Shown here: piece after piece, positions 592-41,803 of the stretch
How positions within the stretch are numbered: position 1 is the first letter of the stretch
Layout: each line of letters opens with the position of its first letter
Source: Strigamia acuminata
Lineage: Eukaryota > Arthropoda > Chilopoda > Geophilomorpha > Linotaeniidae
Assembly (NCBI GenBank): GCA_949358305.1
Contig: OX442321.1
Coordinates: forward strand, 6,783,605 to 6,847,604
Direction: 5' to 3'
Length of the DNA stretch: 64,000 nucleotides
The notes under the pieces: generated by a model
What the model was told of the DNA's origin: nothing
Seen by the model: only the letters and a program-made list of their open reading frames with translations
Databases searched by the model: none
Program-made: the position numbers and the translations under genes

Positions 592-944
592 CCACTTGGA
601 GACACACATGGACACGACAATATGTACGAGACAATATTCAAAAGTTTCAGAGTTCTAGGTAAGCAACGAAGACAAGGTTATAAGTAGAACATGAGTATTT
701 ATGTGGATCAAACTAAGAAAAGTCGCACTGGATGCTGTTAGACCTGGAGCAGGCTCTGAGCACTAATAATTTGGCTTTGTAATTATTTTGCCTACACGGA
801 AGCTATTTCATACATAAAAGTTGCTCATAAAACGTGCATCAACATTAATCTTTTCTAATTAAAGAAAATGATGTTGACTGCAAACCTAGAGTGCTGTGGG
901 TACACAATGAGAAGAAATATCAATACAGAATGTGTAAATAAAAA

Positions 945-1165: not shown

Positions 1166-1401
1166 GTGTAAATACAAAGTTTTTAGGTGGCAATAAATTT
1201 TATTGGTGAGAAATACATGCTTTTTCGTGTAAAAACAAATTTTCTTGTCCTACAATTCCACGCATCGGATTAAACAGTCCAAAAATCGAATTTGGCGCCA
1301 TACTATTGCCCAAGATGCATGGAGCGATGTGATTGGCCATGGGGATAATTATTATTGATCACTTGTGTCTGGGTTTCAAGCTATATGAAGGGTACAATTG
1401 T

Positions 1402-14400: not shown

Positions 14401-17400
14401 TCGGTAAAAATCGAGAAAAATCGGTAAAAATCGAGAAAAATGGAGAAAAAACGGTAAAAATCGGTAAAAATCGATAAAAATCGGTAAAAATCGGTAAAAA
14501 TCGGTAAAAATCGATAAAAATTGGTAAAAATCGATAGAAATCGGTAAAAAACGGTAAAAATCGATAAAAATCGTTTTTATCGATTTTTACCGATTTTTAT
14601 CGATTTTTATCGATTTTTATCAATTTTTACCGATTTTTATTGATTTTTACCGATTTTTTGTCGATTTTTACCGATTTTTATCGATTTTTATTGATTTTTA
14701 CCGATTTTTATCGATTTTTATCGATTTTTACCGATTTTTATCGATTTTTACCGATTTTTATCGATTTTTACCGATTTTTATCGATTTTTATCGATTTTTA
14801 CCGATTTTTAGCAATTTTTACCGATTTTTATCGATTTTTACCGATTTCTATCGTTTTTTCTCCATTTTTACCGATTTTTATCGATTTTTCTTCATTTTTA
14901 TCGATTTTTACCGATTTTTATCAATTTTTACCAATTTTTATCGATTTTTCTCTATTTTATCGCTTTTTTATATGGAATTGTAATGTTTTTTAAAGATTTA
15001 TTGTTGAATAAAATCATAGATTTTGAGTCAAAAAATTTATTTTTGTGATTTGTGAGTCAAAAAATAAATTTCTGTGATTTGTCAGTCAAAAAATTGATTT
15101 TTGTGATTTTTAACATGTAATGTCATATTTTTGTATGTAATTTAAATTTTTTTTTTGTAATTTTTATTTCAATTATTTTAGTAATTTTTATTTATCTTTT
15201 CCACATTCCAGGACTTTGGGGTATACCCCATGGGGTACCCCAATTGGGGTGTACCCCATGTTTTGTAGTGACCCGTATTGGGACACCCTAGACGTGACAG
15301 ATCGGGACACAAAGAATACTTCCCTTCGAGGGGATGGACTAAACGTCAGGTGTGAGGCATCAGGTGTCAGGCGCCTGTTTATTTGGGACTAACTGTCAGG
15401 CGTCAGACGTCTGAATCTCCCTTTTCACCAAAACTAAACGTCATGTGTCAGGCGTCGGGTGCCAGGTGTCAGACCTGACACATGACGTTTAGTCCATCCC
15501 CACTTGGAGACACACATGGACACGACAATATGTACGAGACAATATTCAAAAGTTTCAGAGTTCTAGGTAAGCAACGAAGACAAGGTTATAAGTAGAACAT
15601 GAGTATTTATGTGGATCAAACTAAGAAAAGTCGCACTGGATGCTGTTAGACCTGGAGCAGGCTCTGAGCACTAATAATTTGGCTTTGTAATTATTTTGCC
15701 TACACGGAAGCTATTTCATACATAAAAGTTGCTCATAAAACGTGCATCAACATTAATCTTTTCTAATTAAAGAAAATGATGTTGACTGCAAACCTAGAGT
15801 GCTGTGGGTACACAATGAGAAGAAATATCAATACAGAATGTGTAAATAAAAATCATTTCAGAAAAAAAATTGTTTTGAAAAAACAAATCATTTTGGCAAA
15901 AACAAATTATTTCGGGAAAAACAAATTATTTCGGGAAAAAACAAATTATTTCTGGAAAAAACAAATTATTTCTGGAAAAAACAAATTATTTCTGGAAAAA
16001 ACAAATTATTTCTGGAAAAAACAAATTATTTCTGGAAAAAACAAATTATTTCAGAAGGAAACAAATTAGTTTGGTGTAAATACAAAGTTTTTAGGTGGCA
16101 ATAAATTTTATTGGTGAGAAATACATGCTTTTTCGTGTAAAAACAAATTTTCTTGTCCTACAATTCCACGCATCGGATTAAACAGTCCAAAAATCGAATT
16201 TGGCGCCATACTATTGCCCAAGATGCATGGAGCGATGTGATTGGCCATGGGGATAATTATTATTGATCACTTGTGTCTGGGTTTCAAGCTATATGAAGGG
16301 TACAATTGTAAAATTACAAAAAAAAAAATTTAAATTACATACAAAAATATGACATTACATGTTAAAAATCCCAAAAATCAATTTTTTGATTGACAAATCA
16401 CAGAAATTTATTTTTTGACTCACAAATCACAAAAATAAATTTTTTGACTGAAAATCTATGATTTTATTCAACAATAAATCTTTAAAAAACACTACAATTC
16501 GGTATAAAAAATCGATAAAAATGGAGAAGAAACGATATAAAAATCGGTAAAAATCGATAAAAATCGGTAAAAATCGGTAAAAATCGATAAAAATTGGTAA
16601 AAATCGATAGAAATCGGTAAAAAATGGTAAAAATCGATAAAAATTGTTTTTATCGATTTTTACCGATTTTTATCGATTTTTACCGATTTTTACCGATTTT
16701 TATCGATTTTTACCAATTTTTATCGATTTTTACCGATTTTTATCGATTTTTACCGATTTTTATCGATTTTTACCGATTTTTATCGATTTTTACCGATTTT
16801 TAGCAATTTTTACCGATTTTTATCGATTTTTACCGATTTCTATCGTTTTTTCTCCATTTTTACCGATTTTTATCGATTTTTCTTCATTTTTATCGATTTT
16901 TACCGATTTTTATCAATTTTTACCAATTTTTATCGATTTTTCTCTATTTTATCGCTTTTTTATATGGAATTGTAATGTTTTTTAAAGATTTATTGTTGAA
17001 TAAAATCATTTAGATTTTGAGTCAAAAAATTTATTTTTGTGATTTGTGAGTCAAAAAATAAATTTCTGTGATTTGTCAGTCAAAAAATTGATTTTTGTGA
17101 TTTTTAACATGTAATGTCATATTTTTGTATGTAATTTAAATTTTTTTTTTGTAATTTTTATTTCAATTATTTTAGTAATTTTTATTTATCTTTTCCACAT
17201 TCCAGGACTTTGGGGTATACCCCATGGGGTACCCCAATTGGGGTGTACCCCATGTTTTGTAGTGACCCGTATTGGGACACCCTAGACGTGACAGATCGGG
17301 ACACAAAGAATACTTCCCTTCGAGGGGATGGACTAAACGTCAGGTGTGAGGCATCAGGTGTCAGGCGCCTGTTTATTTGGGACTAACTGTTAGGCGTCAG

Positions 17401-19321
17401 ACGTCTGAATCTCCCTTTTCACCAAAACTAAACGTCATGTGTCAGGCGTCGGGTGCCAGGTGTCAGACCTGACACATGACGTTTAGTCCATCCCCACTTG
17501 GAGACACACATGGACACGACAATATGTACGAGACAATATTCAAAAGTTTCAGAGTTCTAGGTAAGCAACGAAGACAAGGTTATAAGTAGAACATGAGTAT
17601 TTATGTGGATCAAACTAAGAAAAGTCGCACTGGATGCTGTTAGACCTGGAGCAGGCTCTGAGCACTAATAATTTGGCTTTGTAATTATTTTGCCTACACG
17701 GAAGCTATTTCATACATAAAAGTTGCTCATAAAACGTGCATCAACATTAATCTTTTCTAATTAAAGAAAATGATGTTGACTGCAAACCTAGAGTGCTGTG
17801 GGTACACAATGAGAAGAAATATCAATACAGAATGTGTAAATAAAAATTATTTCAGAAAAAAAATTGTTTTGAAAAAACAAATCATTTTGGCAAAAACAAA
17901 TTATTTCGGGAAAAACAAATTATTTCGGGAAAAAACAAATTATTTCTGGAAAAAACTAATTATTTCTGGAAAAAACAAATTATTTCTGGAAAAAACAAAT
18001 TATTTCTGGAAAAAACAAATTATTTCTGGAAAAAACAAATTATTTCTGGAAAAAACAAATTATTTCTGGAAAAAACAAATTATTTCAGAAGGAAACAAAT
18101 TAGTTTGGTGTAAATACAAAGTTTTTAGGTGGCAATAAATTTTATTGGTGAGAAATACATGCTTTTTCGTGTAAAAACAAATTTTCTTGTCCTACAATTC
18201 CACGCATCGGATTAAACAGTCCAAAAATCGAATTTGGCGCCATACTATTGCCCAAGATGCATGGAGCGATGTGATTGGCCATGGGGATAATTATTATTGA
18301 TCACTTGTGTCTGGGTTTCAAGCTATATGAAGGGTAAAATTGTAAAATTACAAAAAAAAAATTTAAATTACATACAAAAGTATGACATTACATGTTAAAA
18401 ATCCCAAAAATCAATTTTTTGATTGACAAATCACAGAAATTAATTTTTTGACTCACAAATCACAAAAATAAATTTTTTGACTGAAAATCTATGATTTTAT
18501 TCAACAATAAATCTTTAAAAAACACTACAATTCGGTATAAAAAATCGATAAAAATGGAGAAGAAACGATATAAAAATCGGTAAAAATCGAGAAAAATCGG
18601 TAAAAATCGAGAAAAATGGAGAAAAAACGGTAAAAATCGGTAAAAATCGATAAAAATCGGTAAAAATCGGTAAAAATCGGTAAAAATCGATAAAAATTGG
18701 TAAAAATCGATAGAAATCGGTAAAAAACGGTAAAAATTGATAAAAATTGTTTTTATCGATTTTTACTGATTTTTATCGATTTTTACCGATTTTTACCGAT
18801 TTTTATCGATTTTTACCAATTTTTATCGATTTTTATCGATTTTTACCGATTTTTATCGATTTTTAGCAATTTTTATCGATTTTTACCGATTTTTATCGAT
18901 TTTTACCGACTTTTATCAATTTTTACCAATTTTTAGCAATTTTTACCGATTTTTATCGATTTTCACCGATTTCTATCGTTTTTTCTCCATTTTTACCGAT
19001 TTTTATCGATTTTTCTTCATTTTTATCGATTTTTACCGATTTTTATCAATTTTTACCAATTTTTATCGATTTTTCTCTATTTTATCGCTTTTTTATATGG
19101 AATTGTAATGTTTTTTAAAGATTTATTGTTGAATAAAATCATAGATTTTGAGTCAAAAAATTTATTTTTGTGATTTGTGAGTCAAAAAATAAATTTCTGT
19201 GATTTGTCAGTCAAAAAATTGATTTTTGTGATTTTTAACATGTAATGTCATATTTTTGTATGTAATTTAAATTTTTTTTTTGTAATTTTTATTTCAATTA
19301 TTTTAGTAATTTTTATTTATC

Positions 19322-19921
19322 TTTTCCACATTCCAGGACTTTGGGGTATACCCCATGGGGTACCCCAATTGGGGTGTACCCCATGTTTTGTAGTGACCCC
19401 GTATCGAGACACCCTAGATGTGACAGATCGGGACACAAAGAATACTTTCCCTCGAGGGGATGGACTAAACGTCAGGTGTGAGGCATCAGGTGTCAGGCCC
19501 CTGTTTATTTGGGACTAACTGTCAGGTGTCAGGCGTCAGACGTCTGAATCTCCCTTTTCATCAAAACTAAACGTCAGGTGTCAGGCGTCGGGTGCCAGGT
19601 GTCAGGCCTGACACCTGACGTTTAGTCCATCCCCACTTGGAGACACACATGGACACGACAATATGTAAGAGACAATATTCAAAAGTTTCAGAGTTCTAGG
19701 TAAGCAATGAAGGCAAGGTAAAACATGAGTATTTATGTGGGTCAAACTAAGAAAAGTCACATTGGATGCTGTTAGACCTGAGCACTAATAATTTGTCAAT
19801 TTTTTCGTCGGCTTTGTAATTATTTTGCCAACACGGAAGCAATTTCATACATAAAAGTTGCTCATAAAACGTGCATCAACATTAATCTTTTCTAATTAAA
19901 GAAAATGATGTTGACTGCAAA
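19322..19921. repeat. Diverged terminal monomer segment of the satellite
   Basis: This last segment shows many more differences from the consensus than internal monomers. Examples are GTATCGAGAC in place of GTATTGGGAC, an extra GTCAGGT near 19520, loss of bases around 19715, and a 14-base insertion near 19800. Homology ends at about 19921, just after the landmark ATG. This fits an array edge. Confidence 0.8.
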
Positions 19922-20392
19922 GTTTATCGATTGCAAAGAATTTATTAGTACGAATTAATATTTTATGAGTAATTTTTATAACATTTTGTGAATAATGCCT
20001 TCATCTCCAAGGAAAAGGCAATTTCAAATGTGAGTACTCATCACATGTAGTATTAATTATTTCCAATCTTCATTTCATTTCAGTTTTCTTGCATCAGTTT
20101 GACTAAAGATGAAAATGATTCTACATGTTTCTGCTTAGTAGAAAAAAAAACCAAGCATTATTATTGGAAAACAACAAACATTTTAAGGCACTTGATCAAA
20201 CATTTGTTCTCCCGCAGCGAGGAAATAAATATTGATTTATACGGTAATATAAACATGCCATGTCATTAAAGTCGTTTCATCCGGCCATAAAATAAAGTAT
20301 AACCGAATATCGATGTGTTTCACACGCCTACGTAATGAAAATCTACTCTCACCGCCGAGCCGAGCACATCGGATGGAATAAAAGTCTCTCCA
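19922..20392. other. AT-rich interval without recognised gene
   Basis: The sequence is unique in this window and AT-rich. It lies between the satellite edge and the first recognisable IR exon. Upstream exons of the plus-strand IR (amino-terminal domain, signal peptide) would be expected here, but I could not identify any. The reading frame of the 20393 exon stays open for a short distance upstream of its ATG. Confidence 0.5.
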
Positions 20393-21419
20393 ATGACATT
20401 ACAAACAAACCAACTTTCTACCCATACAATCCGAGTAGGCCTTATTGAAGTACGTAGAATATTTGACAAAAATTTACACCTTAACCCGAACACTATAAAA
20501 AAATATCGAAACTTTAGTTACCTCCCGAAATGGAATTACACGGCCCTGATGACAATATTACACTCGGTGGATATTATGGCGAATTTTTCGCTGTTCTCTT
20601 CATCCTAGTAAACACAAGGTAGACGCACACTAACCTTTATGACTCCTGTGGTGACTAATGATTGATTGATTTCAGTTATGAATATGTAAGAATTCCGGAT
20701 AACAAATTCGGGTCGATGAATAAGAACAAATCGTGGAGTGGAATGATGAAATATCTGGTAGAGAATGTAAGTTCGTGTCGTTGCATCAAACGTTTCGTTT
20801 TCACTAAACCACAATTTTTGCAGAAGATACAAGTTGGAGCCAGCTTGACCCAAACTAGAAAGAGACAAGAATACGTCAAATTTTCACCAATTTTATATTC
20901 ATCTTCTTACCGACTCTTATACAGAGAGCTAGAGAGCCTTGAATGGTCCTACGATTTTTTTCTAGAACCATTTCAGACTGATGTATGGATTTGTGTGTTA
21001 ATATTCAGCGGTGTAATGATTCTATTCGCACACATCTATAAACGAAAAATCTTTTTGTAAACATCGTGCTACTTAAAAAGCATTTGCAATTTTGTACACG
21101 ATATTTTTTTTCACCTCATTCTGTGTTGGCCAGTTGTCTTCTTGTCAGGTAATTCAACTTCAATTCACAAGTAAAAATAATACATTTTTACTCTGTTATT
21201 ACAGCTCATATGTCAGTGAACAACGCCTCTTCAAAAATTATTTTTCTCTGTTATTATTTATTCGTTATTGTTACAATTGCAAGCTACAGTAGTCATTTAA
21301 CAGCAATGCTCACAGTAGCAAAATACACGATTCCCTTCCACTCACTAGAAGACATGATTCTAGAAACCGATTATTTTCCGGTCATAGTTCAAGGAAGGAG
21401 TATAGAAGAAATGTTTTCG
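20393..21419 (+). pseudogene. Ionotropic receptor, 5' half (S1, M1, pore/M3), with nonsense codon
   Basis: I read five exons with GT-AG junctions and consistent phases: ?-20449, 20518-20618, 20676-20766, 20824-21148 and 21205-21419. The product would be an iGluR-related chemosensory receptor subunit in the dendritic membrane. Exon 1 ends in TIRVGLIE and exon 2 continues LPPEMELHGPDD...LGGYYGEFF, the usual start of the IR S1 lobe. Exon 4 carries the rest of S1 and a first membrane segment (VWICVLIFSGVMILFAHIY). Exon 5 holds the M3-type motif IASYSSHLTAMLTV. Inside exon 4 the frame meets a TAA at 21058-21060, after M1 and before the pore, while the same frame stays open on both sides. The minus-strand paralogues have an uninterrupted equivalent exon. 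True start not found. Confidence 0.82.
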
Positions 21420-21824
21420 GTAAGTAATGAACTAGGCCTAAATCGCCATAAATTAGTTGCACACTATTTATTCTTAATTTCGCACTATTTTTAATTGTTT
21501 TCCTCACTACTTTTTCCGCACTATTTCTACTGAATTTTACACTAAATCTTCTTTATTTGTCACTACTACCGAAAAACGTCCGGTAGACTTTTTTTTGGTA
21601 GTAGTAACGTTTTATGAACGTTCCGGCGCTATTTTAGTATGTATAGTAACGTTTCATGAACGTTTAGGCACTCTTTTAGTATATTTTAGTTCACCATGCA
21701 CAAACAATGGATTAGAGTCTACCAACAACACAATTAAATCCCATTACACTCTCCACAGCAGATTGCCTGTTCACAGGTTTTTTGAAGTGTTGAAGCGGAT
21801 GGTTTGAGATTGGTCGCTAGATAT
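21420..21824 (+). other. IR intron, upstream part
   Basis: The intron opens with a strong donor (TCG|GTAAGT at 21419/21420) and is cut at 21825 by Gypsy-1. It contains two imperfect copies of AGTAACGTTTYATGAACGTT (near 21603 and 21647). The remaining intron after the element is only 36 bp (30817-30852, acceptor TTAATAG). Apart from the inserted element the intron would be roughly 440 bp. Confidence 0.7.
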
Positions 21825-22325
21825 TGTTACGCGGTAGAGCCGTACCGTGTATCGGCTGGCTCTGCTCGCTCTGTTTAGGCATTTAATACAATGAATTCTC
21901 ACTAGACGGCGCTGTGCACCTAATTAGATGCACAGACCGTTCAACTTAGTTGATAGGGGGAATAGGAGTTTACTTAGTGAGTTGATTAAGCCAGAGAGCT
22001 CAGATCTCTTTTGATTCTCAAACTGTTACCTTCACCTACTACTGCCAGCCGGTTGACGGTCAGGCAGGACTAGGTTTCTTAAAATGAATTGAATTGACAA
22101 CAGCATCATCCTTATTTACTTATTTGATTTGAATGAACCATTTATGTGTTTTTAGATTAATAAATGAACAAATGTAATAAGAGCTGATGACCGAACATTT
22201 ACATTAGTAAATGTCCGACTTTGAATAATAAAGCCAATAGGCGTTTTACATATAAAACCCTGTGTCATTCTTGATTAAATTCATGTCACGTAGGACCAAA
22301 TCAATCCCCATTTAGCCACGTAACA
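21825..22325 (+). repeat. Gypsy-1 5' LTR
   Basis: 501 bp, starting TGTTACGCGG and ending CCACGTAACA. It contains AATAATAAAGCC (possible polyadenylation signal near 22225) and CATATAAAACCC (TATA-like, near 22250). The only difference from the 3' LTR that I see is C versus T near 22290/30788. The segment CACTAGACGGCGC near 21900 resembles a CTCF-type core. Confidence 0.95.
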
Positions 22326-22867
22326 ACTGGTGGAGATGCGGTCTCGATTGTAGCCCGTTTAGAATTAAAATCCTATTAAAATTGGATTAAAATTGCCAAA
22401 ATAATTTAATAAAATTCTAGAAATAAAAACTTGAAAATTGCTGATTTTATAGCAATTATCTTGAATGACTCAGAGTTGGTAAAAACAAGTGAAGTCACAG
22501 CTTGAATATTTAATGTCATTGTGTGAAATAATTTGCATTTTGGAAATGAAAATAGAGTTTAATTGTTTATTAGGGATTAATAAATTGATTTACAATTGTT
22601 ATATTTAGAATAAATAAAATATATAGTGTATAAATACTAATTTTGATATTTATTTACAGGAAATTTTGTGAATTTATAGGAATTGAAAAATTGTTTTGAA
22701 ATGTTATTGTTGGATTATTTTCTTTGTAATTTTGAGTGTAATATTTATGTATTATATGCTAATAACACTTTAAGTTTTCAGGTAATGAATTCGTGTTAGT
22801 GTATTCAGTGTTTAGAAAGAGATTAGTGCTAGTGAAGTGAATAAAAAGTGCAATATAAGGCTTCAGT
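22326..22867 (+). other. Gypsy-1 untranslated leader with primer-binding site
   Basis: A candidate primer-binding site TGGTGGAGATGCGG begins at 22328, two bases after the LTR. I did not match it confidently to one tRNA. The rest is AT-rich and non-coding. CAG/GTAATG near 22781 and GGCTTCAG at 22859-22866 are possible splice signals, the second lying directly before the gag frame. Confidence 0.7.
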
Positions 22868-24199
22868 GTGGATAAGCCAGTGAAATTGTCACAGTTCAAC
22901 TTGGATAATCTTCAGGATTTACAAAATTTGCAGTCACCTGAACCAAATTTGAAGAATATCACCACTAGGAAAAGTAAAAACGCTAAATCCGAATCTGACA
23001 CTGAACCTCAGAAGGAAGATAGAGAAGTCCGATCTCAACCTCAATCAATCCTACAGAAGTTGGATTTCGCTACTCCGTTAATAAAGTTAATTCCACAAAA
23101 AGGTTTAGAAGAAATAATAAAGACATTTACACCAGTAAAAACTAAACCAGTTCCAACCCTAATTGAACCAAATTTTCCAAAAATGACATCATCACAGACT
23201 CCAACGGACGTATTGACCGACTTGTTGAAGAGTTTGGTAGTGCAGAAGCGACCTGTTGTCACTTACGATACAGAAAAAGGCAACATCGACCAATGGCTTG
23301 TGGCATATGAAGCTACAATAGGAACAGATGATGAGAGAGTAAAACATCTAGCATTAGCCTTAAAGACTGATGGATTGGCATGGTTTGTGGAACAACTAAA
23401 GAAGAATCCGACATGGAAATGGACGGATTGGAAACCACAGATCGAGAAAAAATTTAGAAGAAGCCAAGAAAATGTTTACAATACTCTCCACTTCATGAAA
23501 CACAAAGAGGGTACAGCAGATGCCTTCATGAAGAAAGTCTTGGCCGAATGTGCGTTTATTCTACCAGAAATGACTGAAACTCAGAAAATAAATTACGTTT
23601 ACCAAGGTTTGAAGCCTGCAATGCAGAAGATGATGATAACAGTATTTCCATCGACGTTAGAAGAAATGGAACAGAGACTTAAATTGTATGAAAGTCACAA
23701 AACAGAAGAACCAGCGGATCTACTGCTCACAATGTTTAAAAAAGTTGTAGATGAAAAGGTGTACCCTACGACAACAGGTATACTGTCTGGAACAGGGGGA
23801 TCCCCAGTAAGCTACGCCGAGTTATTAGCTGAAAATATCAAATTAAAACAGCAAAAGCTCGTAAGTGAGTCAGTAGAGCCACAACAATTGGTTCCATTAT
23901 TCATACAAGGCGAGTGGTATATTCCAGCATCGCAGCGCGGACAGAACTTTAGAGGTAGATACAACAGAGGTAGACAGCGGTCAAATAGCAGTCCGACAAC
24001 AACGCGTTCATGTGGATGTTGGCATCGTTATGGTTGTGAACATAACACATCAGCGCCACAGGAGCAACAATCTCAAGAAAATAGAGGGAACCCAAACAAC
24101 AGAAGGTGGTTTAAGAAGAAAAGGATACAAGGGGCTGGTAAAACGAACCCTAATCCTAAGCAGAACCCACAACAAGGTCAACAAGAAGAGGAAAACTAG
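22868..24199 (+). CDS. gag: Gypsy-1 Gag polyprotein
   Basis: The frame encodes about 443 residues of structural Gag, which would package element RNA into a cytoplasmic particle. Residues about 135-275 match the retrotransposon Gag capsid fold by pattern (WFVEQLKKNPTWKWTDWKPQ, then FMKHKEGTADAF and INYVYQGLKPAM). The tail is basic and RG-rich (NFRGRYNRGRQR) and holds a Cys/His cluster, CGCWHRYGCEH, that is not a standard CX2CX4HX4C knuckle. The frame opens after a stop at 22856 and begins with GTG at 22868. The first ATG is at 23183, so initiation is either internal, non-AUG, or from a spliced leader through the AG at 22866. It ends with TAG at 24197, overlapping the pol frame. Confidence 0.87.
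   Translation: MDKPVKLSQFNLDNLQDLQNLQSPEPNLKNITTRKSKNAKSESDTEPQKEDREVRSQPQSILQKLDFATPLIKLIPQKGLEEIIKTFTPVKTKPVPTLIEPNFPKMTSSQTPTDVLTDLLKSLVVQKRPVVTYDTEKGNIDQWLVAYEATIGTDDERVKHLALALKTDGLAWFVEQLKKNPTWKWTDWKPQIEKKFRRSQENVYNTLHFMKHKEGTADAFMKKVLAECAFILPEMTETQKINYVYQGLKPAMQKMMITVFPSTLEEMEQRLKLYESHKTEEPADLLLTMFKKVVDEKVYPTTTGILSGTGGSPVSYAELLAENIKLKQQKLVSESVEPQQLVPLFIQGEWYIPASQRGQNFRGRYNRGRQRSNSSPTTTRSCGCWHRYGCEHNTSAPQEQQSQENRGNPNNRRWFKKKRIQGAGKTNPNPKQNPQQGQQEEEN
24190..24196 (+). promoter_or_regulatory. Candidate -1 ribosomal frameshift site
   Basis: The heptamer G GAA AAC is read in the gag frame immediately before the gag TAG. Pol lies in the -1 frame and is open from about 24160, giving roughly 40 nt of overlap. 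A slip of the A-site AAC to AAA would enter pol. The heptamer is not the strict XXXYYYZ form, so the exact site is an inference. Confidence 0.45.
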
Positions 24200-27100
24200 T
24201 GGGTCGGCCACAAAGAAGATGTCACCATCAACAAGGAAGATGTTGTCATCCAAAGAAGAAAAGAAAAAGTAGAAAAGAAAAGATAATCGTAGTCGAAATG
24301 AACATTTCAGAATCTCTATTGGAAATTCCAGTAATAGTGAACAACATGGAAGTCAAGGCAGTTATGGACACTGGAGGAAAACGCAACGTTATCAGCGAAG
24401 AGCTTGCTGAAGCTTTACAGTTGAAGTACCCGCCAAGCCCAAATATACGATTACAAGGGGTAAGCGGAGAACTTGTGACTCCAATAGGAAAAACCAAGAT
24501 GAACATTACAATTGGTGAATTAACATACAGGATCGAGGTCCTGATTGTTAAAGGATTTCATTATGAATTACTGCTAAGTGACCCATTCATGCTGTTCGCG
24601 AAGTGTGTGTTAGACTACGACAAACAAAAAATCTTTGTGGGCCGAACTAGTGGAAAGGAAGTGTCATTTCCAATGAATAAAACTTTTGTTGATCAGAATT
24701 ATGTTGCGAGGGTAATGAAGAATATCACAATTCCACCAATGCATGAGTGCATTGTTCCCATCTATTTGAATAAAGCAATAACATTGGACATGTTTGTGCA
24801 ACCATTGCATAATGTTACTGATAGATTTGCTGTGATAGGTTGTAAAACTTTGACAGATTTCAAGAACGGAAAAGGCATCATTCGAGTGGCTAACCCAACC
24901 AAGAAGACAGTCTTTCTGAAGGAGAAGTCAGCGATCGCAAAAGCTTATTATGTGGTTGATGTTGGGGTGTTTGATGAAAAACAGGTACACTGTTTTGACT
25001 TTGACTCCTCAATAGCAAAAGACAAAATGAATAAAGACCAACAAGAGCAAATGCGACAACTTCTTCAAAAGAATCAAGACAGATTTGCTGTTTCTGATAA
25101 GGATTTGGGAAGAGTTCAAGTGTATAAGCATAAAATCGATACTGGAGACCATGACCCAATACATTTGCAACCGTATCGTCGTTCTATGAAGGAAAAAGAA
25201 GTCGAAGCAGAGGAAACAAAGAAATTGCTTGATATGGGAGTGATAAGGGAATCAGAAAGTCCCTGGAGCGCGCCTGTATTGCTAATAAAGAAAAGAGATG
25301 GTAAGTGGAGATTTTGTGTCGACTGGAGACGTTTGAATGCGATAACAAAGAAAATGGTGTACCCATTGCCAAGAATAGATGACACTTTAGATCAGTTGGC
25401 AGGTGCACAGTTCTTCTCCATGATGGATCTTATTCAAGGATATTATCAAGTCGAGATAGATGAACAAGATCGTGAAAAAACAGCGTTTACCACTTCAAGC
25501 GGACATTTTGAGTTTAACGTCCTAGGAATGGGATTATGCAATAGTCCAGCAGCTTTTCAAAAGTTAATGAATAAAGTTTTAGGCAACCTCCTAGGCAAAG
25601 TTTGTATAGCGTACATTGACGACCTTATCATTTTCTCTAAAACATTCGATCAGCATTTGAAAGATCTAGACAACGTTTTCGACAAGCTTAGACAATCTAA
25701 CTTAAAGGTGAAGTTGAGCAAGTGCACATTTGGGACGAACACCATCAAGTATTTGGGACATGTCGTGGACTCTGAGGGTATATCACCAGACCCTAGGAAC
25801 TTGGAATCCGTCGCGAAGTTTCCAGTTCCTACTAACCTCAAACTTCTTCGAGGATTCATAGGGCTCTGTTCGTATTACAGGAAGTTCATTCCAAGTTTTG
25901 CGGACATATCCAAGCCCTTAGTCAATTTGACGAAGAAGGACGAGAAATTTGATTGGGGCCCACCGCATGACAAGGCCTTCAAAACATTGAGGACCGCCCT
26001 TATTACCGTGCCAGTGCTTGCGCACCCTAATTTCGAAGAACCCTTCATGGTATCGACAGACGCGAGCGCATATGGTCTTGGAGCAGTGTTGAAACAGAAG
26101 ATAAACAAACAAGAACATGTGATAGCTTATGCCAGCAGACTTCTCAGCCAAGCAGAACAGAATTACACAGCCACAGAAAGGGAATGTCTGGCTATTCTGT
26201 TTGGAATTGAAAAGTACCGACCTTATCTGTATGGTAAGAAGTTCCAGATAATTACAGACCATTCGGCACTCCAATGGCTAAAATCAGTCAAAAACCCCAA
26301 TGGCAGACTAGCTAGATGGAGCTTACAGCTAGTAGACTTTGATTTCGATGTGATCTACAAGAGCGGAAAAGCGCACAAAGATGCCGACGCCTTGAGCAGA
26401 ATTCCAGAGGATTTAAGCGAGGAAGAAAACGAAATAGTTCCCTCACTTTTACTCGAACAGCTCGACCTTCCTGCTGAGCAGCGTAAGGACAAGAAGCTAC
26501 TGGAATTGATCACCGCAATGAATCAAGTAGAGCAACTTCCGAAGAAGAGAAGACGTCCTCTAAAGCAGTTCGTCCTTCTCGACAATGTGTTGTTTAGGAA
26601 GAAAAATTCTTTGAATTCCCTAGACACGGAAGTAAATCTGTTATATGTTCCGCAGCATTTGAAAACTGCAGTTCTTGAAGAAATGCATGACGGACTGACG
26701 GGTGCTCACTTGGGCCTAAACAAAACGTGGAAGAGAATGAGAACAAGATTCTTCTGGCCCCGGATATATAAAGACGTTAGAAATTACGTACTTTCTTGTC
26801 CACATTGCGCGAGCTCGAAATCAATGACGACAGCGCCAAAAGGTTTAATGCAGCCGTGGTCTACGATATCTAAGCCTTTCGAGAGGATTGGAATCGATAC
26901 ACTGGGAAGTTTTCCAACCTCCGACAAGGGCAACAAGTATGTTTTCGTAATGACAGATTATTTGTCGCGGACAGTGATTGCTAGAGCAGCTCCAGCATCA
27001 ACAGCGTTGGAAGCAGCTAGAACCTTGCTTTATGAGTTAATGTTGAAGGAAGGCAGTCCGAGAGAAATCCTGAGCGATAAAGGCACAGAATACAGAAACA

Positions 27101-28143
27101 AAATGGTGGAAGAAGTATCAAATATGTTTAAAGCCCTACACAAAACCACTTCAGGGTACCATCCAAGGACCAATGGTCTTACAGAAAGATTCAATGCGAC
27201 GTTTGCAAAAATGTTGCAGATTTATGTTGATAAGGACCAGAGGGACTGGGATGATTTTTTGCCATTTTTGCTTTTCTCATATAATACCGGTGTGCATGAA
27301 ACGACTGGATATACACCTTATTATCTTTTGAAAGGATATGAAGTTGATTTGAACGTGGACGTAAACCTCAACTTACCTCAAAAAGAATTCACCTTGCGAA
27401 CCTCGAAATTCATCAGAGAAGCTAGGAAAATAGCAAATGAAAGGTTGGAGTGGCAAGGAGAAAAAAGCAGAAAAAGATTCGATCAAGGCCGAGTTCATGT
27501 GGAATTTGACCCAGGAGAATTAGTATATCTCAAAACACCCAATAGAAAAGTTGGGTTGAGTGAAAAACTCCTACCACAGTTCTCAGGCCCATATGAAATA
27601 GTAAGAAGAACCGCGCCAAATGACTATGAAATTAGAAGTTCAAATGGAAAGAAAACAGATATTGTTAATATTGAACGATTAAAACCGTATAAACCCAGAG
27701 AAGAAATTCCAGCGGAAATATTAGAAGAGTTGACAGCTAAAAAAGTCACATTTGCTGATGAAACTGCAACACAAAGTGAGAAACAACAAGAAATTGAAGA
27801 AAACACATCAATTTCGCCAATTCCGATCGCTAAAGAACGATTTATTAGCGATGACGATCAAATTTCGTTAAAAACACTCTTTGAACCTGAAGAAAATACA
27901 ACAAAAGTGTCAAATTTCCCAATTCCAAGCGAAAAAGAGCGATTAAAAGCGCTCTATGGACCGAAAGAAATCATGGAAAGATGGCAAAACGAAGACGAAC
28001 GGAAAAACAAAGAAAAACAATTGCGAAAATCGCCGACAGGTGTCGCTGACGCAGTCGATGACGCGTCGCCGCCTGAAATCGAGAGTTTCCGGTCACGTCG
28101 CCTTCGCAAACAGGCTCGTCGTGACTACAGTGGATTGTGTTAA
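24199..28143 (+). CDS. pol: Gypsy-1 Pol polyprotein (PR-RT-RH-IN)
   Basis: About 1314 codons, enough for protease, reverse transcriptase, RNase H and integrase. Approximate residues: aspartic protease AVMDTGG at 55-60; RT with VDWRRLNAI near 375 and YIDDLIIFS near 472; RNase H STDASAYGLG near 620, with TERECLAI and DHSALQW; integrase HHCC zinc region (HLGLNK...CPHCASSK) near 835-875; catalytic Asp in GIDTLG near 900, SDKGTE near 959 and TERFN near 995. A short basic and acidic tail extends past integrase. No ATG occurs at the start (first ATG at 24298), so expression as Gag-Pol by -1 frameshifting is likely. No internal stop breaks the frame. Confidence 0.94.
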   Translation: MGRPQRRCHHQQGRCCHPKKKRKSRKEKIIVVEMNISESLLEIPVIVNNMEVKAVMDTGGKRNVISEELAEALQLKYPPSPNIRLQGVSGELVTPIGKTKMNITIGELTYRIEVLIVKGFHYELLLSDPFMLFAKCVLDYDKQKIFVGRTSGKEVSFPMNKTFVDQNYVARVMKNITIPPMHECIVPIYLNKAITLDMFVQPLHNVTDRFAVIGCKTLTDFKNGKGIIRVANPTKKTVFLKEKSAIAKAYYVVDVGVFDEKQVHCFDFDSSIAKDKMNKDQQEQMRQLLQKNQDRFAVSDKDLGRVQVYKHKIDTGDHDPIHLQPYRRSMKEKEVEAEETKKLLDMGVIRESESPWSAPVLLIKKRDGKWRFCVDWRRLNAITKKMVYPLPRIDDTLDQLAGAQFFSMMDLIQGYYQVEIDEQDREKTAFTTSSGHFEFNVLGMGLCNSPAAFQKLMNKVLGNLLGKVCIAYIDDLIIFSKTFDQHLKDLDNVFDKLRQSNLKVKLSKCTFGTNTIKYLGHVVDSEGISPDPRNLESVAKFPVPTNLKLLRGFIGLCSYYRKFIPSFADISKPLVNLTKKDEKFDWGPPHDKAFKTLRTALITVPVLAHPNFEEPFMVSTDASAYGLGAVLKQKINKQEHVIAYASRLLSQAEQNYTATERECLAILFGIEKYRPYLYGKKFQIITDHSALQWLKSVKNPNGRLARWSLQLVDFDFDVIYKSGKAHKDADALSRIPEDLSEEENEIVPSLLLEQLDLPAEQRKDKKLLELITAMNQVEQLPKKRRRPLKQFVLLDNVLFRKKNSLNSLDTEVNLLYVPQHLKTAVLEEMHDGLTGAHLGLNKTWKRMRTRFFWPRIYKDVRNYVLSCPHCASSKSMTTAPKGLMQPWSTISKPFERIGIDTLGSFPTSDKGNKYVFVMTDYLSRTVIARAAPASTALEAARTLLYELMLKEGSPREILSDKGTEYRNKMVEEVSNMFKALHKTTSGYHPRTNGLTERFNATFAKMLQIYVDKDQRDWDDFLPFLLFSYNTGVHETTGYTPYYLLKGYEVDLNVDVNLNLPQKEFTLRTSKFIREARKIANERLEWQGEKSRKRFDQGRVHVEFDPGELVYLKTPNRKVGLSEKLLPQFSGPYEIVRRTAPNDYEIRSSNGKKTDIVNIERLKPYKPREEIPAEILEELTAKKVTFADETATQSEKQQEIEENTSISPIPIAKERFISDDDQISLKTLFEPEENTTKVSNFPIPSEKERLKALYGPKEIMERWQNEDERKNKEKQLRKSPTGVADAVDDASPPEIESFRSRRLRKQARRDYSGLC

Positions 28144-28557
28144 GGTTTTCTGAGACGAACCGGGTTTACTGTGTGACTCAAAGAAACCTAAAGCATTAAT
28201 AACAGCAGCAGTTGATTTGTGTGTGATTCCGTAAGTGAAAAGAGTGGATTTTGAACGAATTTGGCGAACAAATAGCTTGAAAACGAAACGAATCTATCGC
28301 GAATTTTGTGAGAAAATAACATCGCGAAATGGAAATTTAGGCTTAAATAATTGTGTTAAATCTTCAAAATGAAATTTTAGTGTGTGCATATATTATCAAG
28401 TGACTAATTAGTTGAAGAATTGTTAAATTTAGTGTAATTTAGTGCAACATGAAATGTTAAATGAAATAGTGAATGGAAATTGGAATAATTTTGTGAATAT
28501 TTTGAATTAATGAATTAATTTATTTTTTTTCTTTACAAACAATATATTAGAATCCGA
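28144..28557 (+). other. Gypsy-1 pol-ORF3 spacer with likely 3' splice site
   Basis: An AT-rich non-coding stretch lies between the pol stop and ORF3. It ends with a pyrimidine-rich tract (TTTTTTTTCTTTAC) and ATATTAG at 28545-28551, seven bases before the ORF3 ATG. That arrangement suggests ORF3 is translated from a spliced subgenomic RNA, as env is in errantiviruses. The matching donor was not identified. Confidence 0.55.
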
Positions 28558-29925
28558 ATGGACGAAATGGCAAGCAAATTTGATCGGATGGATGTGCGTA
28601 GTGACAGCGATACGGATTCGGTTTGCTCGATGCAAGTGGGCGATCTTTTGGAACGTCAACTTAAGAAAGGCGATGACTTGGAAATTTATCTAGCAAATAA
28701 GCCGAGCACAAGTAAAACTTTGGACGAATTGGTTAACTGCCCACGCCCGTTTACAGAAGGAAAACAGAAGGCGGAGGAAGATAAAAAGAAATATGCAGGA
28801 CCATTAACAAAGGGTGAAGAAGGCTTATTGCGTCGTCGTCGTAAGAATCGACAATTGAAACGAGATAAGAAAGCACAAAAGAAGAAAGTGTTTGATGAGC
28901 AATCGAAAAGGATCCGGGAAGAAGAAATGCGTCACACCGTTGATCGAAACAAACGCCGATTAAACGATTTGCGAATGGAGCACCGGAATATGGTCAACGC
29001 CATTAGAGCCAGGAAATTAAAAGGAGTGATGGGATTGCCCGACTATCAGTTGTGGAGAACAGGGGCGAATGCTTTGCTGATCCAGGAGGCGAAGATAAGA
29101 AAAAACATTTTAAAAGCCATCGCCCTAGCGAGAAGAGAGTCCTTCCAGGACCCTAGTGTAGTATTTCCTACTCCTATACGGGTATACCGTGTGGAGTTGG
29201 ACGCTGCACGACAGGTCCAGGCTCTCGGACTTGCATTAGATTATAGTAATGCGCCAAAATACGACTTAGCATTCGACGCCGTAGGTTGTCCGCCGATTAA
29301 AGTCATGAACTATCAGATGGCAGCATTAGGCGACCTAACGCCGGGACGACAGAGCTGGACGTATGACAGCGTCGTTGATCACTACCTCCAACTGTTAGAA
29401 GAACGATACCCGATATTGGCACCAATTCAATCTGAGTGGGTATACAAAATGGTGGACCCAGCTAAACGAAAGGAAGCGATCTATTGGCTAATGAGGAGAC
29501 TTCCAAGTGCTCAAAAGAAGATTTGGGTGTTCCCAGTTCCTATTGAAGAGCATTGGCAGCTTTTCATAGTGGATTGGCGGAAAAAGCCAACCCAATACGT
29601 GCTTTATGACCCAAGCGGACCAATAGAGCGCACATATCCAAAGTGGGAATCTTTAAGATACTCGTTGATGGATGCAGGAGTAAAGTTTCCAAACAAGTTC
29701 ATACGTTGGGACCCGCCACGTATGCACCAATTGGATAATGACAGCTGTGGCCCAACCATACTCTACTTCACTAGAAGATATGTTGAAGACCGTGACTTAA
29801 TGCAGTTTGGGGAGCCGTGCGAGTTACGCTTACGATTTGTGTATGAGATTGCAAATCGTGAAATTCTCCCATTCGAGTTGATCAAAGAAGAGGATAAGAA
29901 AGATCAAGCGGAAGGAGGAGAGTGA
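28558..29925 (+). CDS. Gypsy-1 ORF3: Ulp1/C48-like cysteine protease in the env position
   Basis: A 455-residue frame with a clear ATG, in the slot where env would sit, but with no signal peptide or membrane segment. Residues 1-165 are charged, with a very basic stretch (LLRRRRKNRQLKRDKKAQKK, about 98-117) likely to be nuclear-targeting or nucleic-acid binding. Residues about 265-425 follow the Ulp1/SENP (peptidase C48) pattern. A helix SWTYDSVVDHYLQLL is followed by WVFPVPIEEHWQLFIVDW with His332-Trp333, then VLYDPSG with Asp351, then HQLDNDSCGP with Gln391 and Cys397. The Gln-to-Cys spacing of six and the His-Asp-Gln-Cys order match the family. The usual activity is removal of SUMO or similar modifiers, or polyprotein cleavage. 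Which applies here is unknown. Confidence 0.85.
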   Translation: MDEMASKFDRMDVRSDSDTDSVCSMQVGDLLERQLKKGDDLEIYLANKPSTSKTLDELVNCPRPFTEGKQKAEEDKKKYAGPLTKGEEGLLRRRRKNRQLKRDKKAQKKKVFDEQSKRIREEEMRHTVDRNKRRLNDLRMEHRNMVNAIRARKLKGVMGLPDYQLWRTGANALLIQEAKIRKNILKAIALARRESFQDPSVVFPTPIRVYRVELDAARQVQALGLALDYSNAPKYDLAFDAVGCPPIKVMNYQMAALGDLTPGRQSWTYDSVVDHYLQLLEERYPILAPIQSEWVYKMVDPAKRKEAIYWLMRRLPSAQKKIWVFPVPIEEHWQLFIVDWRKKPTQYVLYDPSGPIERTYPKWESLRYSLMDAGVKFPNKFIRWDPPRMHQLDNDSCGPTILYFTRRYVEDRDLMQFGEPCELRLRFVYEIANREILPFELIKEEDKKDQAEGGE

Positions 29926-30315
29926 AGTGAACTTTAACTTTCTTTAAGTGAATAAGTGTAAAATCAACACGAACTTTGAACATTTTTTTTTGTGTGTGTT
30001 TTTTTTATTTTATAGAAAATTGAAAACTGAAAAAAAGTAATATAAAAATAAAAAACCAAAAAGTGTTAATTTTATTTAATTTTAAACTTTGAATATTGTT
30101 TCCAATGTAAAAGTGTAATAAAAAGTGACTATGACATTTATAAACATTGAAAAGTGTATCATATTATATTTTTGTAAAAATAAGGATGATGAAAAGAGAT
30201 TCTCAAAATTGTAAAATTGAGTTTATGATTTGAATTTTTTTTAATGTGAAAGGAGATGCGTTAGTTAGAACAATTCATTGTTTTTCGAGAGACCGAAAAA
30301 ATTAAAGGGGGGGGC
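29926..30315 (+). other. Gypsy-1 3' untranslated region and polypurine tract
   Basis: AT-rich and non-coding. A polypurine tract, AAAGGGGGGGG, occupies about 30304-30314 directly before the 3' LTR at 30316 and would prime plus-strand synthesis. Confidence 0.85.
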
Positions 30316-30816
30316 TGTTACGCGGTAGAGCCGTACCGTGTATCGGCTGGCTCTGCTCGCTCTGTTTAGGCATTTAATACAATGAATTCTCACTAGACGG
30401 CGCTGTGCACCTAATTAGATGCACAGACCGTTCAACTTAGTTGATAGGGGGAATAGGAGTTTACTTAGTGAGTTGATTAAGCCAGAGAGCTCAGATCTCT
30501 TTTGATTCTCAAACTGTTACCTTCACCTACTACTGCCAGCCGGTTGACGGTCAGGCAGGACTAGGTTTCTTAAAATGAATTGAATTGACAACAGCATCAT
30601 CCTTATTTACTTATTTGATTTGAATGAACCATTTATGTGTTTTTAGATTAATAAATGAACAAATGTAATAAGAGCTGATGACCGAACATTTACATTAGTA
30701 AATGTCCGACTTTGAATAATAAAGCCAATAGGCGTTTTACATATAAAACCCTGTGTCATTCTTGATTAAATTCATGTCACGTAGGACTAAATCAATCCCC
30801 ATTTAGCCACGTAACA
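30316..30816 (+). repeat. Gypsy-1 3' LTR
   Basis: 501 bp, same ends and length as the 5' LTR, with a single visible base difference near 30788. It is followed by the ATAT target duplication. Confidence 0.95.
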
Positions 30817-30852
30817 ATATGTTAAAGAATATTTTTATTTCTACATTAATAG

Positions 30853-32159: not shown

Positions 32160-35100
32160 TTACACTAAAGTTGCTACATTATCTTGCTTTGAACACTTGA
32201 TCGCTCCTGCAGCCAGGGCCGGCCTGGCTCCTAAGTCAACCGAAGAGTGCCCAGCAGATTTATCCTGTTGTTTGGGGGTGACATCTTGAGTCCCAGCAGA
32301 TTTATCCTGTTGTTTGGAGGTGACATCTTGAGGTTCATGCTTTAAACAGTTTATCTCTGCTGCAGCTAGGGCCGGCCTGGCTCGTAGGTCAACCGAAGAG
32401 TGCCCAGCAGATTCATCCTGTTGTTTGGGGGTGACATTTTGAGTTTCAGCACGAAGTGACAATAATTCTGGGCTCGGCCCTGGCTGCATGACATTACTCA
32501 CAATCAATTCCACGCTTAGCAGCAAAATGCAAATTAGCAGACCAACAGTTAACAAGTAAAATGGTACAATTACTTGACTCAAAGTCAGTGGCTGGAGACT
32601 TCGAGGTTTGTTGCAATCCGGTCTTTGCATCGAGACGTACTTTTCCGTTTCTTTTTGTATTATTCCTGCGGTCTTAAACAAGAGAAACCTGCAACAAAAT
32701 AAAATAAAATCGGTGAAAAAATGATATACAGTCGAAACTCTTTATAACGAATCGCAAGGGACCAGAAGAATCGATTCGTTATAACGAGAATTCGTTAAAA
32801 CGAATTAGGTAAAAAAATTAAATTTTATCATGAAAAACATTATTAATTCATAAACATGGTATTTCTTGGTAGTTTCATGTTAATTTTGTCCCGATTCTTT
32901 AAAATTGTTGAAATTTGCAGCTGAAATTGTAGAACGGGACAAATTAAACTCACAAGGGAACCACATGAATAAGTCATTTTAGATTTTGGCCAAATTTTGG
33001 CCAAATGATGTCTAAAGTGAGCTTAATAATTGCCTAAATTTTTAAATCTCCATGGTCAGCTGATTAACCATGGTAATTATCCCAAATCTGTACTCTTTTT
33101 GGGCTCTAGTAGACATTTTGAGTGAAAAGGCTGTGTGTAGGGATATGGTAAACAACTGGTTGCTGAGCAACAACTCCAGGAAAATAGTTCTGGAGCACTA
33201 ATCCAGAACTATTTTTTCTGGAGTTGTTTTCTGGTCACATGGTCACATCCAGGAATTTTAATACAATAATAGCTTGTAGTGGTGGTCCAGTGGTTAAGGC
33301 AATGGACTAGAAATCTTTCCACACAGGTTCAAATCCTGGTGTGTGTGTGTGAAAATTTTTACTTTTATTTTTTATTTGTTTTAGCAGTAATTTTAAAGTT
33401 TGTAATTTTATATTTCTTTTTAGAAATTTTAATTTAATTAATTTTAATTTTAATTTTTCTTTGGTTTCTAAATATAGGCATCAGATGTGATCAGTTTTGA
33501 AAATTCGTTATAACGAGAGCTTATGGGTATTACAGTGTACCTGAAAACTTGTTCGTTATAACGAATAATTCGTTATATCGAAATTCGTTATAACGAAAAT
33601 ATTTAACATGGTGTTCTATGGCTGGCCAACCAAGTCATTTTAAACAATTCGTTATATCGATAATTCGTTATAATGCGATTCGTTATAAAGAGTTTCGACT
33701 GTATAATTTGTGACTGCTTGGCCACCCAGGGTGACCCATGTCACTACCATGCACCACCATACGGCCCCAAGGTCATCTGCTCTGTGGGTGGACTGACCTA
33801 GCCTGGAGGAGGAGGGAGCTGAGTGGTGTGGGGAGGAGTCGAGTGTGAGAGGTGAGAGAGAGAGGTTGTCTGTCTCGCTGTCTGTCACCGGTCGTGCTAG
33901 AGAGAGGTGAGTCTCTCTCCGACCGTGAAGAAGAGGACCTGTGACCACCGAGGGGACAAGACGTGTCCCCGGCTATCGTGAACTCTGCACTCCTCGCCAT
34001 TCACCACAGCAAAGCTCAGTGTTAAGGCGGTCTCCATAATGCATCTTCCATGAGCGGCTGCGTGTGGCATAGGTGAGTACGACATGAATGTTATGTTGAA
34101 CCGACCACGTCACCCATGGGGCTTACGCCCTGTGTGTGACTGGTCGGTTGCCGGTGCAGTGTGCCTAAATGACACCCCCGCAACGGGTGACGGGATTCCC
34201 CATACCCCTAGACAACACATATTAAAGGCCAACAACCAATAATAGGGAGTCTTTGTCATTTATTCGTGAGTATGCGTCCCACACCAGGATACCAGTCCCC
34301 GGGTTACCTTTGATAAGACAATACCAGTCACAAATTTGTACAAACTTTTGTGAAAACAGTTCCTTCAGAGGTGAGTAGTTCGGAAACGCCATGCTGGCAC
34401 CTGATGGTAAATATTCAGTGGGAAGAAAATCCAACTCGCACATGTGTCTTATCTCATGCATGGCGTCGACTGAGTTATCAATAAATGCGAATTTCTCAGA
34501 CAACGCTTTCTGATACCCGTCTGCAGAATTCACAACATCATTTTCCAATACACCAAACAGTTCGATAAACGGTTGGGACTGCATAGCCTACAACGAAACA
34601 TTTGTTAAAATGACAAATTCGTTTAAACGTTTAAATAACCGGCACCTTAAGGTCTGAATAGTAGTTAGACTGGTTTTCTGTGCCAAATTTGAATTCGTGC
34701 TGAAGTAAATCTTCCAATGTTTCATACTGGTGTGCTTTTTCGTGAACTACTGCTTTAGAAATCAATAAACTGCTATACATCGACGACGTAATAACTGTGC
34801 AGAAAAAGTAAGCGGCAGTCACAATACTCATTGAAACTAAACGATTTTTTCTAAGCACATCTAAAAATTAAAAATTCAAATAAAGATAAACAGAAGGAAC
34901 CAAAAATGTTTGTTTCACCTTTTATTAAGACCAATTTCATCAAAGTACTTGCCACTTTCTGCCACAGCGTCTTTTCTTCAGTGTCGCAAAGTGTTGAAAC
35001 AATACACATCATTACCCATAATGCGACTAATACCAACCAAACATTTAATGGATAAGGATCGATATAATTTATTTCGTTCACGTCGTTCCGAGATGGCTGT

Positions 35101-36137
35101 CTTAAAACAACTGCCATGTAAACGTCAAAAATATTCGATGTTAAAAAATCTACATCGATGTAATCGGTTCGGCCAGGAATAAAACCGACACCTTCGAAAT
35201 CGACCTCCTTGCATATAATAACAGTATTAATAAAATAAAATAAATTGTTAAATATTTTTTTTTTTACGTTTTGTTTTACACTGTCGTACAATTCTCTATA
35301 CGCACCCGGCGGAAAAATACGAAATGTATAACTATGAATGATGAAATGTATATTTCAGTTCGGGTCGTTCAACTTGATTAAAAATTTTACCTGAAGTTGA
35401 GCACTTGCGCTAAAAGTTTTATCAATTCAACTAGTAATCCACCGGATACTACATTGTTAGTCACAATAAGGTTTGGAGGAATCTAGAAATACAGAGTTTA
35501 AATAGATATCGAGTTTATGAATGTCGGATAATACATGAAGGACTCCCACAGTCAAATTTTTTAGAATAGAAAATTCCATTGGAATGTTGCTCATAGTTTC
35601 GATTAACCTGGTCAACTAAACGATCGAGACGAAAGGCAATGGCCAGACCTAAGTAAAACCATATAACTATGATTAAAATAAAATAAAAATATTATTAAAT
35701 GAACAAATATATGCGTCAAAGTTAATTACAACTTCGCTCAAACGAAAATTAATCAGTAAACAACAAATCATGTTCATAAATTGACTAACCATATCCGAAG
35801 AGAAAAAACGAAGCACTACTAATTTGAAAATCGGTATTTACGTTTTTATTACTATGCGCTCACGCGAGCAGTCACACATTAATATAATTAAATTTAATTG
35901 ATTGATTAAAATTAACATACAAAAAACTAAGAATTAAGAAATAAGTAAATGGACAAACAAAAGTGCATTTCTATATAAGATAACTTACATTACTAATAAT
36001 CGTACATCCAAGCTAGAATAATCAACATCAAGGTCGATAAAGAAGAATTGTGTACACAAAAATCGCAAAGAATAAACTCGTATATAACGATTCAAAACAC
36101 TTCCGACTCCACCTGTGTCGCTGATGGAAATGACAAT
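32160..36137 (-). CDS. Ionotropic receptor A (minus strand, module 1)
   Basis: Exons read on the minus strand: 36137-35989 (probable amino-terminal domain piece), 35615-35535, 35482-35391, 35331-35268, 35207-34919, 34860-34646, 34587-34346 and 32688-32160. All visible junctions are GT-AG. S1 runs from LTVGVLH|IPPNLIV through LNFSYTFRIFPPGAY to VLRQPSRND. M1 is YPLNVWLVLVALWVMMCIV, M3 is NRLVSMSIVTAAYFFCTVI, S2 is in the 242-bp exon, and M4 is VIVPFYLLTVGLLICILLL in the last exon. The tail after M4 repeats TPKQQDKSAGHSSVDLxARP-like blocks. The phase between the two most upstream exons is not resolved and the start codon is not identified. The last intron is stretched to 1.66 kb by two transposons. 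From 35615 onwards I see no stop or frameshift. Confidence 0.8.
32729..33701. mobile_element. pogo/Tigger-like non-autonomous DNA transposon
   Basis: 973 bp with ends CAGTCGAAACTC...GAGTTTCGACTG and a TA duplication (32727-32728 and 33702-33703). CAGT termini and TA targets are typical of pogo/Tigger elements. Multiple TTCGTTATAACGAA-type dyads lie just inside both ends. No transposase frame remains. It lies in the last intron of IR A. The same intron in B and C has no such element, so it inserted after those duplications. Confidence 0.88.
33276..33347 (+). pseudogene. tRNA-Ser(AGA)-like sequence inside the pogo-like element
   Basis: Polymerase III A-box-like (TGGTCCAGTGG) and B-box (GGTTCAAATCC) motifs flank an anticodon arm GGACTAGAAATC, where AGA falls in the anticodon position. 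The long variable arm expected of tRNA-Ser is missing and the acceptor stem does not pair well. This suggests a degenerate tRNA or the tRNA-derived head of a SINE carried within the transposon rather than a working tRNA gene. Confidence 0.6.
33709..34332. mobile_element. TGTGAC...GTCACA element, copy 1 (intron of IR A)
   Basis: 624 bp with termini TGTGACTG...CAGTCACA and a 4-bp duplication AATT (33705-33708 and 34333-34336). The empty site is present in IR B (TATAATTTGTACAC near 39668). The identical site is occupied in IR C (61089-61704). Short terminal identity and a TGT/ACA ending fit either a solo LTR or a Ginger-type non-autonomous transposon. Confidence 0.88.
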
Positions 36138-41737: not shown

Positions 41738-41803
41738 AGTTTTGAACATTCAAACTATTTTAAATAAACATATCTTACGGTTTGAACTTTGCAAACCATC
41801 GAA

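Follow-up and report, generated by a model that had tools for sequence, protein, structure and literature searches.

We analyzed a 64-kb window of the 237.5-Mb Strigamia acuminata assembly (G000:C10:6783605-6847604); by the window we mean this whole stretch of DNA. Positions 21825-30817 of the window are a complete Ty3/Gypsy LTR retrotransposon with gag, pol, and a third open reading frame, ORF3 (Table 1). The LTRs have TG...CA ends and differ from each other by one mismatch in 502 bp. The element also has a polypurine tract, a target site duplication, and the domain order PR-RT-RH-INT. The listed gag and pol ORFs overlap by one base and are in different frames. In pol, matches to the Pfam models Asp_protease_2, RVT_1, RT_RNaseH, Integrase_H2C2, rve, and Integrase_p58_C were all above the cut-off. 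Gag had a weak match to Ty3_capsid (9.4e-4) that was under the cut-off, and could be aligned with the gag of two other copies of the element, L057 and L059. The similarity with these copies (window positions 22868-23181) starts 5' of the first in-frame ATG. The start of gag may be a non-ATG codon, or may lie in another exon.

Table 1. Features of the retrotransposon, in window positions
Feature	Position	Strand	Remarks
Target site duplication	21821-21824 and 30818-30821		ATAT, 4 bp
5' LTR	21825..22326	+	TGTTACG...CGTAACA
gag ORF	22868..24199	+	GTG-started as listed; true start uncertain
pol	24199..28143	+	aspartic protease, RT, RNase H, integrase (Pfam)
Intron-like segment	28231..28550	+	320 nt, GTAAGT...TTAG; separates the pol stop from the ORF3 start
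ORF3	28558..29925	+	ATG start, 455 aa
ORF3, N-terminal half			basic region, residues 92-112 (NLS-like)
ORF3, C48 domain			~residues 255-440
Polypurine tract	30304..30315	+	AAAGGGGGGGGC; directly 5' of 3' LTR, read from sequence
3' LTR	30316..30817	+	502 bp

The element appears to be inserted in an intron of an ionotropic-receptor-like gene (GTAAGT at 21420, AG at ~30859). ORFs at 20662-21420, from ~30860, and at 34222-35291 have the look of ionotropic receptor fragments. Positions 1-20000 hold a large satellite array of ~2.1-kb units, with long inverted repeats and an internal periodicity of 10 and 20 bp. A second Gypsy pol is at 41789-45949, and an open Copia polyprotein frame (1613 aa) is on the minus strand at 46397-51238. 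Residues 1032-1074 of the Copia frame match the Pfam methyl-CpG-binding domain MBD (4.7e-9, above the cut-off), and this domain inside the polyprotein looked unusual for a Copia element. Beyond the Copia element is an 850-aa ORF (53671-56223) with no Pfam match at E≤0.01. It is perhaps gag or an accessory ORF of that element.

Resemblance of ORF3 to C48 proteases

A previous reading of this DNA, made from its letters and without searches (the sequence-only reading), had proposed that ORF3 is a Ulp1/C48-like cysteine protease with key residues H332, W333, D351, Q391, and C397, occupying the place of an envelope gene and lacking membrane features. ORF3 is long: in 500 base shuffles of the interval from pol to the LTR, the longest ATG-started ORF had 133 codons, compared to 455 in ORF3. 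We found the five residues at the positions claimed. They were invariant, together with G398 and W267, in an alignment of 15 ORF3 sequences from the genome. Among the full-length ORF3s that we read, six checked residues that include these five were kept in 46 of 46, a count without L001, which duplicates the window, and without the broken or partial copies L031, L045, L049, and L050. The residues of SENP1 that match the His-Asp-Gln-Cys set are catalytic, and the SENP counterparts of W267 and W333 clamp the Gly-Gly tail.

We compared a profile of the 15 ORF3 sequences to the PDB. The profile matched SENP1 (1.9e-11), SENP5 (3e-8), SENP2 (7e-7), and yeast Ulp1 (5e-5), and the alignment with SENP1 extended over ~190 residues and kept the catalytic stretches in register. 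All 17 matches at E≤1 were to SENP1, 2, 3, 5, Ulp1, or XopD; the adenovirus protease was absent from them. Twelve of the 15 aligned ORF3s matched the Pfam C48 model at E≤1. The cut-off of this model (20.7 bits) was passed by L034 (22.5 bits) and, in another search, by three ORF3 loci, and L041 was below it (13.8 bits). The window ORF3 alone had no Pfam match (E≤1 in one search and E≤0.1 in another) and matched SENP1 weakly (E=0.0013). Its C48 assignment comes through its relatives. An AlphaFold prediction of the domain from the single sequence, made without an alignment, had a pLDDT of 39.5. Based on the profile match and the register of the catalytic residues, the proposed identity is supported at the level of sequence: ORF3 appears to belong to Peptidase C48 (Ulp1/SENP), and would have the C48 fold. 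Its closest sequences are SUMO proteases of the SENP1/2/3/5-Ulp1 class. ORF3 is like SENP1, SENP2, SENP5, and Ulp1 in catalytic register and in aligning over the length of the domain. However, the similarity is remote, and ORF3 is a retrotransposon gene with an N-terminal half of its own.

No transmembrane segment is present in ORF3. On the Kyte-Doolittle scale, the highest mean over 19 residues was 0.72 for the window copy and 1.43 in the set of 15 sequences. Thus, the envelope-slot position and the lack of membrane features both held up: ORF3 is the third ORF, after pol, and has no membrane segment. Errantiviruses and insect endogenous retroviruses with env-F are likewise Ty3/Gypsy elements with a third ORF after pol. 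In contrast to env-F, ORF3 resembles a C48 protease and not a fusogen, and the element does not have the membrane envelope that is the third ORF of an errantivirus. A basic cluster in the N-terminal half of ORF3, with 10-13 K/R per 21 residues, has the same location in all 15 sequences. When the window protein was shuffled 2000 times, no shuffle reached the 13 K/R of its cluster. The cluster fits a nuclear protein, and the N-terminal half is probably nuclear-targeting.

C48 domains are known in other mobile elements. They occur in MULEs and Ginger (PMC2836005) and in Cryptons (PMC3212892). Those elements are DNA or tyrosine-recombinase transposons, whereas ORF3 belongs to an LTR retrotransposon, as an ORF of its own that is apparently spliced. 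In the Ulp1-bearing MULE and Ginger elements the DDE or Mutator transposase protein includes Ulp1; the window element has LTRs and a separate pol. The non-LTR retrotransposons NeSL and Utopia-1_TSP have an N-terminal Ulp1-like protease (PMC4640811). These are retrotransposons with an Ulp1-like domain, but they lack LTRs and the domain is within the RT protein. The MDG1 group, like the present element, is Gypsy-type with accessory non-envelope genes under constraint, sORF1 and sORF2. Unlike ORF3, the sORFs are short and located 5' of gag, sORF2 encodes a membrane protein, and neither is described as a protease in the source (PMC11952523). Our searches of the literature, much of it in partial text and with Repbase and most subscription papers outside its scope, turned up no LTR element that carries a C48 gene. 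The C48 gene appears to be an unusual accessory ORF for an LTR retrotransposon; non-env accessory ORFs are already known in Gypsy-type elements.

We found no homologues of ORF3 outside this genome at E≤1 among 5112 and 7065 protein candidates, and neither ORF3 nor pol relatives in viral_contigs. As a control, a search of the same protein database with pol gave 2416 relatives at E≤1e-10, and those with species names among the 120 matches listed were arachnids. That is, the database does contain arthropod retroelements. The lack of ORF3 homologues in it proves little, as a word-based search is weak at 35% identity. Within the genome, none of six other C48 loci, some of which are single exons, was identified as the donor of ORF3; their profile scores were at most 25.8 bits (L052). 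One of them, L056 (7.9 bits), is a MULE-like ORF with C48 whose transposase and weak PHD matches are under the cut-offs. This ORF is repeated in the genome, at six loci that share one score.

Conservation, loss, and possible splicing and exchange of ORF3

A search of the genome with ORF3 gave at least 94 matches. This is a lower bound, as 93 of 510 candidates were scored; two loci were each split in two pieces. The ORF3s fall into five lineages: that of the window, which includes broken copies at 61-77% identity, and four others at about 33-47% identity to the window ORF3 in this search and 32-41% in the 15-sequence alignment. A one-off host capture is ruled out by this number of matches in five lineages. 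In four divergent copies that we read at length (L057-L060), ORF3 followed pol each time. Thus the search for related Gypsy elements with the same ORF, which the sequence-only reading had called for, did find them. Gag was in place in L059, present as an inverted piece in L057, and not recognised in L058 and L060, and the pol of L058 was broken. The complete order gag-pol-ORF3 was found in the window element and in L059, which has 570-bp LTRs that are 99.8% identical. We looked for LTRs of L060 and did not find them.

The dN/dS of the whole ORF3 was 0.03-0.15 within lineages, in the 9 of 19 pairs with estimable dS. For the same nine pairs it was 0.04-0.13 in the protease domain and 0.03-0.19 in the N-terminal half. 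Between lineages, synonymous divergence was saturated. ORF3 diverged more than pol: dN was 0.60-0.77 for ORF3 and 0.19-0.23 for pol in five of six element pairs, with synonymous sites saturated in both. Judging from these substitutions, ORF3 is maintained under purifying selection. The sequence-only reading had argued for maintenance from young LTRs and an open frame, and had suggested dN/dS across copies as a check; the ratios and the catalytic residues kept in every full-length copy that we read agree with it.

ORF3 is apparently expressed from a spliced RNA, on the evidence of one copy of 29. Of the close copies (L002-L030, read with 1.5-kb flanks), 28 of 29 were colinear with the window through pol, ORF3, and the 3' LTR. 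L027 lacks exactly the intron-like segment (Table 1) and is otherwise colinear, and the other 28 (L002-L026, L028-L030) all retain the segment with its GTAAGT. The clean GT...AG junction in L027 looks like the trace of a spliced RNA that was reverse transcribed. By eye, a pyrimidine-rich stretch ending in AG is present shortly 5' of the ORF3 ATG in L057, L058, L059, L060, and L075. The GTAAGT donor was absent from the four divergent pol-ORF3 spacers that we scanned.

Many relatives of the element lack an ORF3 match. We scored 112 integrase matches, the best of 6191 candidates. Among these, an ORF3 match was within 4 kb 3' of integrase at 42 of 49 loci with at least 90% identity and at 18 of 63 loci with 81-84% identity. 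Ten further ORF3 places, chosen by eye, paired with none of the 52 remaining integrase loci. We examined 12 of these 52, all of them among the loci with 81-84% identity. All 12 had a C-terminal remnant of ORF3 (E≤1e-3) in the 3' flank, and all 12 had open pol frames of 1309-1360 codons with no stops. The remnants and the open pol frames indicate that ORF3 was ancestral to these copies, was repeatedly deleted, and is dispensable in cis. The sequence-only reading had held that copies lacking ORF3 would point to a one-off host capture. Such copies do exist, but the 12 examined are deletions with a remnant and give no indication of a one-off capture. The deletions fall into six junction classes, four with overlaps of 3-11 nt and two with an unaligned stretch. 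None of the six is GT...AG, which rejects splicing as their origin, and template switching appears likelier.

ORF3 and pol can also have different histories. In L059 and L060, pol is 96% identical (pS 0.29) and ORF3 is 60% identical (pS 0.83), and nucleotide identity between the two, ~0.93 in pol, drops over the pol end and the spacer to 0.62. The simplest reading of this contrast, which comes from one pair, would be recombination. L060 is also not alignable with L059 5' of pol (0.46-0.64), and so it may be pol, and not ORF3, that moved. Together with the remnants in the 12 relatives, this pair suggests that ORF3 is a module that can be exchanged and is lost again and again. Neither this exchange and repeated deletion in pol-intact relatives nor the splicing of ORF3 was foreseen in the sequence-only reading.

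Possible roles of ORF3

The reading that we favor, with a probability of roughly 0.55, is that ORF3 is a spliced, probably nuclear C48 protease that strips host SUMO in trans, most likely against silencing. ORF3 would be an accessory gene in one clade of Ty3/Gypsy retrotransposons, made from spliced RNA as envelope genes are. The env genes of insect endogenous retroviruses, for example, are expressed from subgenomic RNA that is spliced (PMC12992720). The basic N-terminal half would take the protease to the nucleus, and the protease would free host proteins of SUMO or a similar modifier. The targets would most likely be chromatin or small-RNA silencing proteins that repress the element, and action in trans would allow derivatives with the deletion to survive alongside complete copies. 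Our results support the gene, its family resemblance, its conservation, purifying selection, one splice trace, one pair in which pol and ORF3 differ in history, and repeated loss; we infer catalysis, SUMO as the substrate, the nuclear site, and the anti-silencing purpose.

A role in countering host silencing is plausible and would fit the literature on SUMO. Piwi-guided transposon silencing in Drosophila involves the SUMO ligase Su(var)2-10 (PMC7272611, PMC7861614). Yeast Ulp1 that is tethered at nuclear pores restricts transcription of Ty1, which rises when the tethering complex is lost (PMC8585004). The yeast result indicates that the SUMO state controls LTR elements. Since Ty1 goes up when the tethering complex is lost, it also indicates that de-SUMOylation need not favor an element. 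Only tentatively would we go further and propose that a Ty3/Gypsy clade has in its envelope slot a SUMO-protease gene, spliced and exchangeable, whose product acts in trans to disarm transposon silencing that depends on SUMO, with pol-intact deletion copies able to spread as cheaters.

It is improbable that ORF3 is instead a processing protease of the element that acts in maturation of Gag, Pol, or the capsid, by analogy to the adenovirus type, and not on host modifiers. Some viral relatives in its protease clan mature capsids, ORF3 follows pol in all four divergent copies, and the Gags of L057 and L059 have a common C-terminal GAPRGG stretch. However, pol has its own aspartic protease, above the Pfam cut-off, which weakens the maturation protease that the sequence-only reading had offered as an alternative. 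In addition, relatives without ORF3 retain an intact pol, and the structural matches of the profile are to SENPs, Ulp1, and XopD and not to the adenovirus protease. The window Gag has a single Gly-Gly, at residue 310, which has no counterpart in the Gags of L057 and L059, and it lacks their GAPRGG. We rejected processing of Gag at Gly-Gly by ORF3, as these sites are not common to the window and L057/L059 Gags.

It is also possible, but rather unlikely, that ORF3 aids integration, nuclear entry, or repair by acting on SUMO or ubiquitin on integrase, the nuclear pore, or repair factors, and not against silencing. The NLS-like basic region would suit such a role, which has been suggested for other transposons that bear Ulp1 or OTU; the authors of the Ginger study suggest a role in transposition and repair (PMC2836005). 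Against this, the many pol-intact loci without ORF3 (12 examined) indicate that it is dispensable in cis, a finding that is compatible with trans-complementation. We strongly doubt that ORF3 is a C48-type protein with no catalytic activity, one that would bind SUMO or other modifiers and leave them uncleaved. Its rapid change relative to pol, seen in five of six pairs, is in favor of this; the catalytic residues, kept in 46 of 46 copies, are against it. Least credible is that ORF3 is a recent, functionless passenger that has not yet decayed. The window copy is indeed young by its one LTR mismatch, but ORF3 is kept in five lineages with saturated synonymous divergence and low dN/dS, and this constraint across lineages already contradicts the idea.

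If the proposed removal of host SUMO in trans is true, ORF3 would serve a retrotransposon in counter-defence, and the known roles of third ORFs would extend past cell entry. A constrained SUMO-protease-like gene that is lost and apparently exchanged like env would make retrotransposon counter-defence directly testable, and the sister elements with and without ORF3 in one genome are a natural experiment. We also looked for the host SUMO gene. The three Rad60-SLD matches that we read (L076-L078), of 23 in the genome, were ubiquitins. Two of these, L077 and L078, are divergent ubiquitin-like ORFs that end in LRLRGGD, and matches with similar scores are present at G000:C3:1901167 and C5:11682418.
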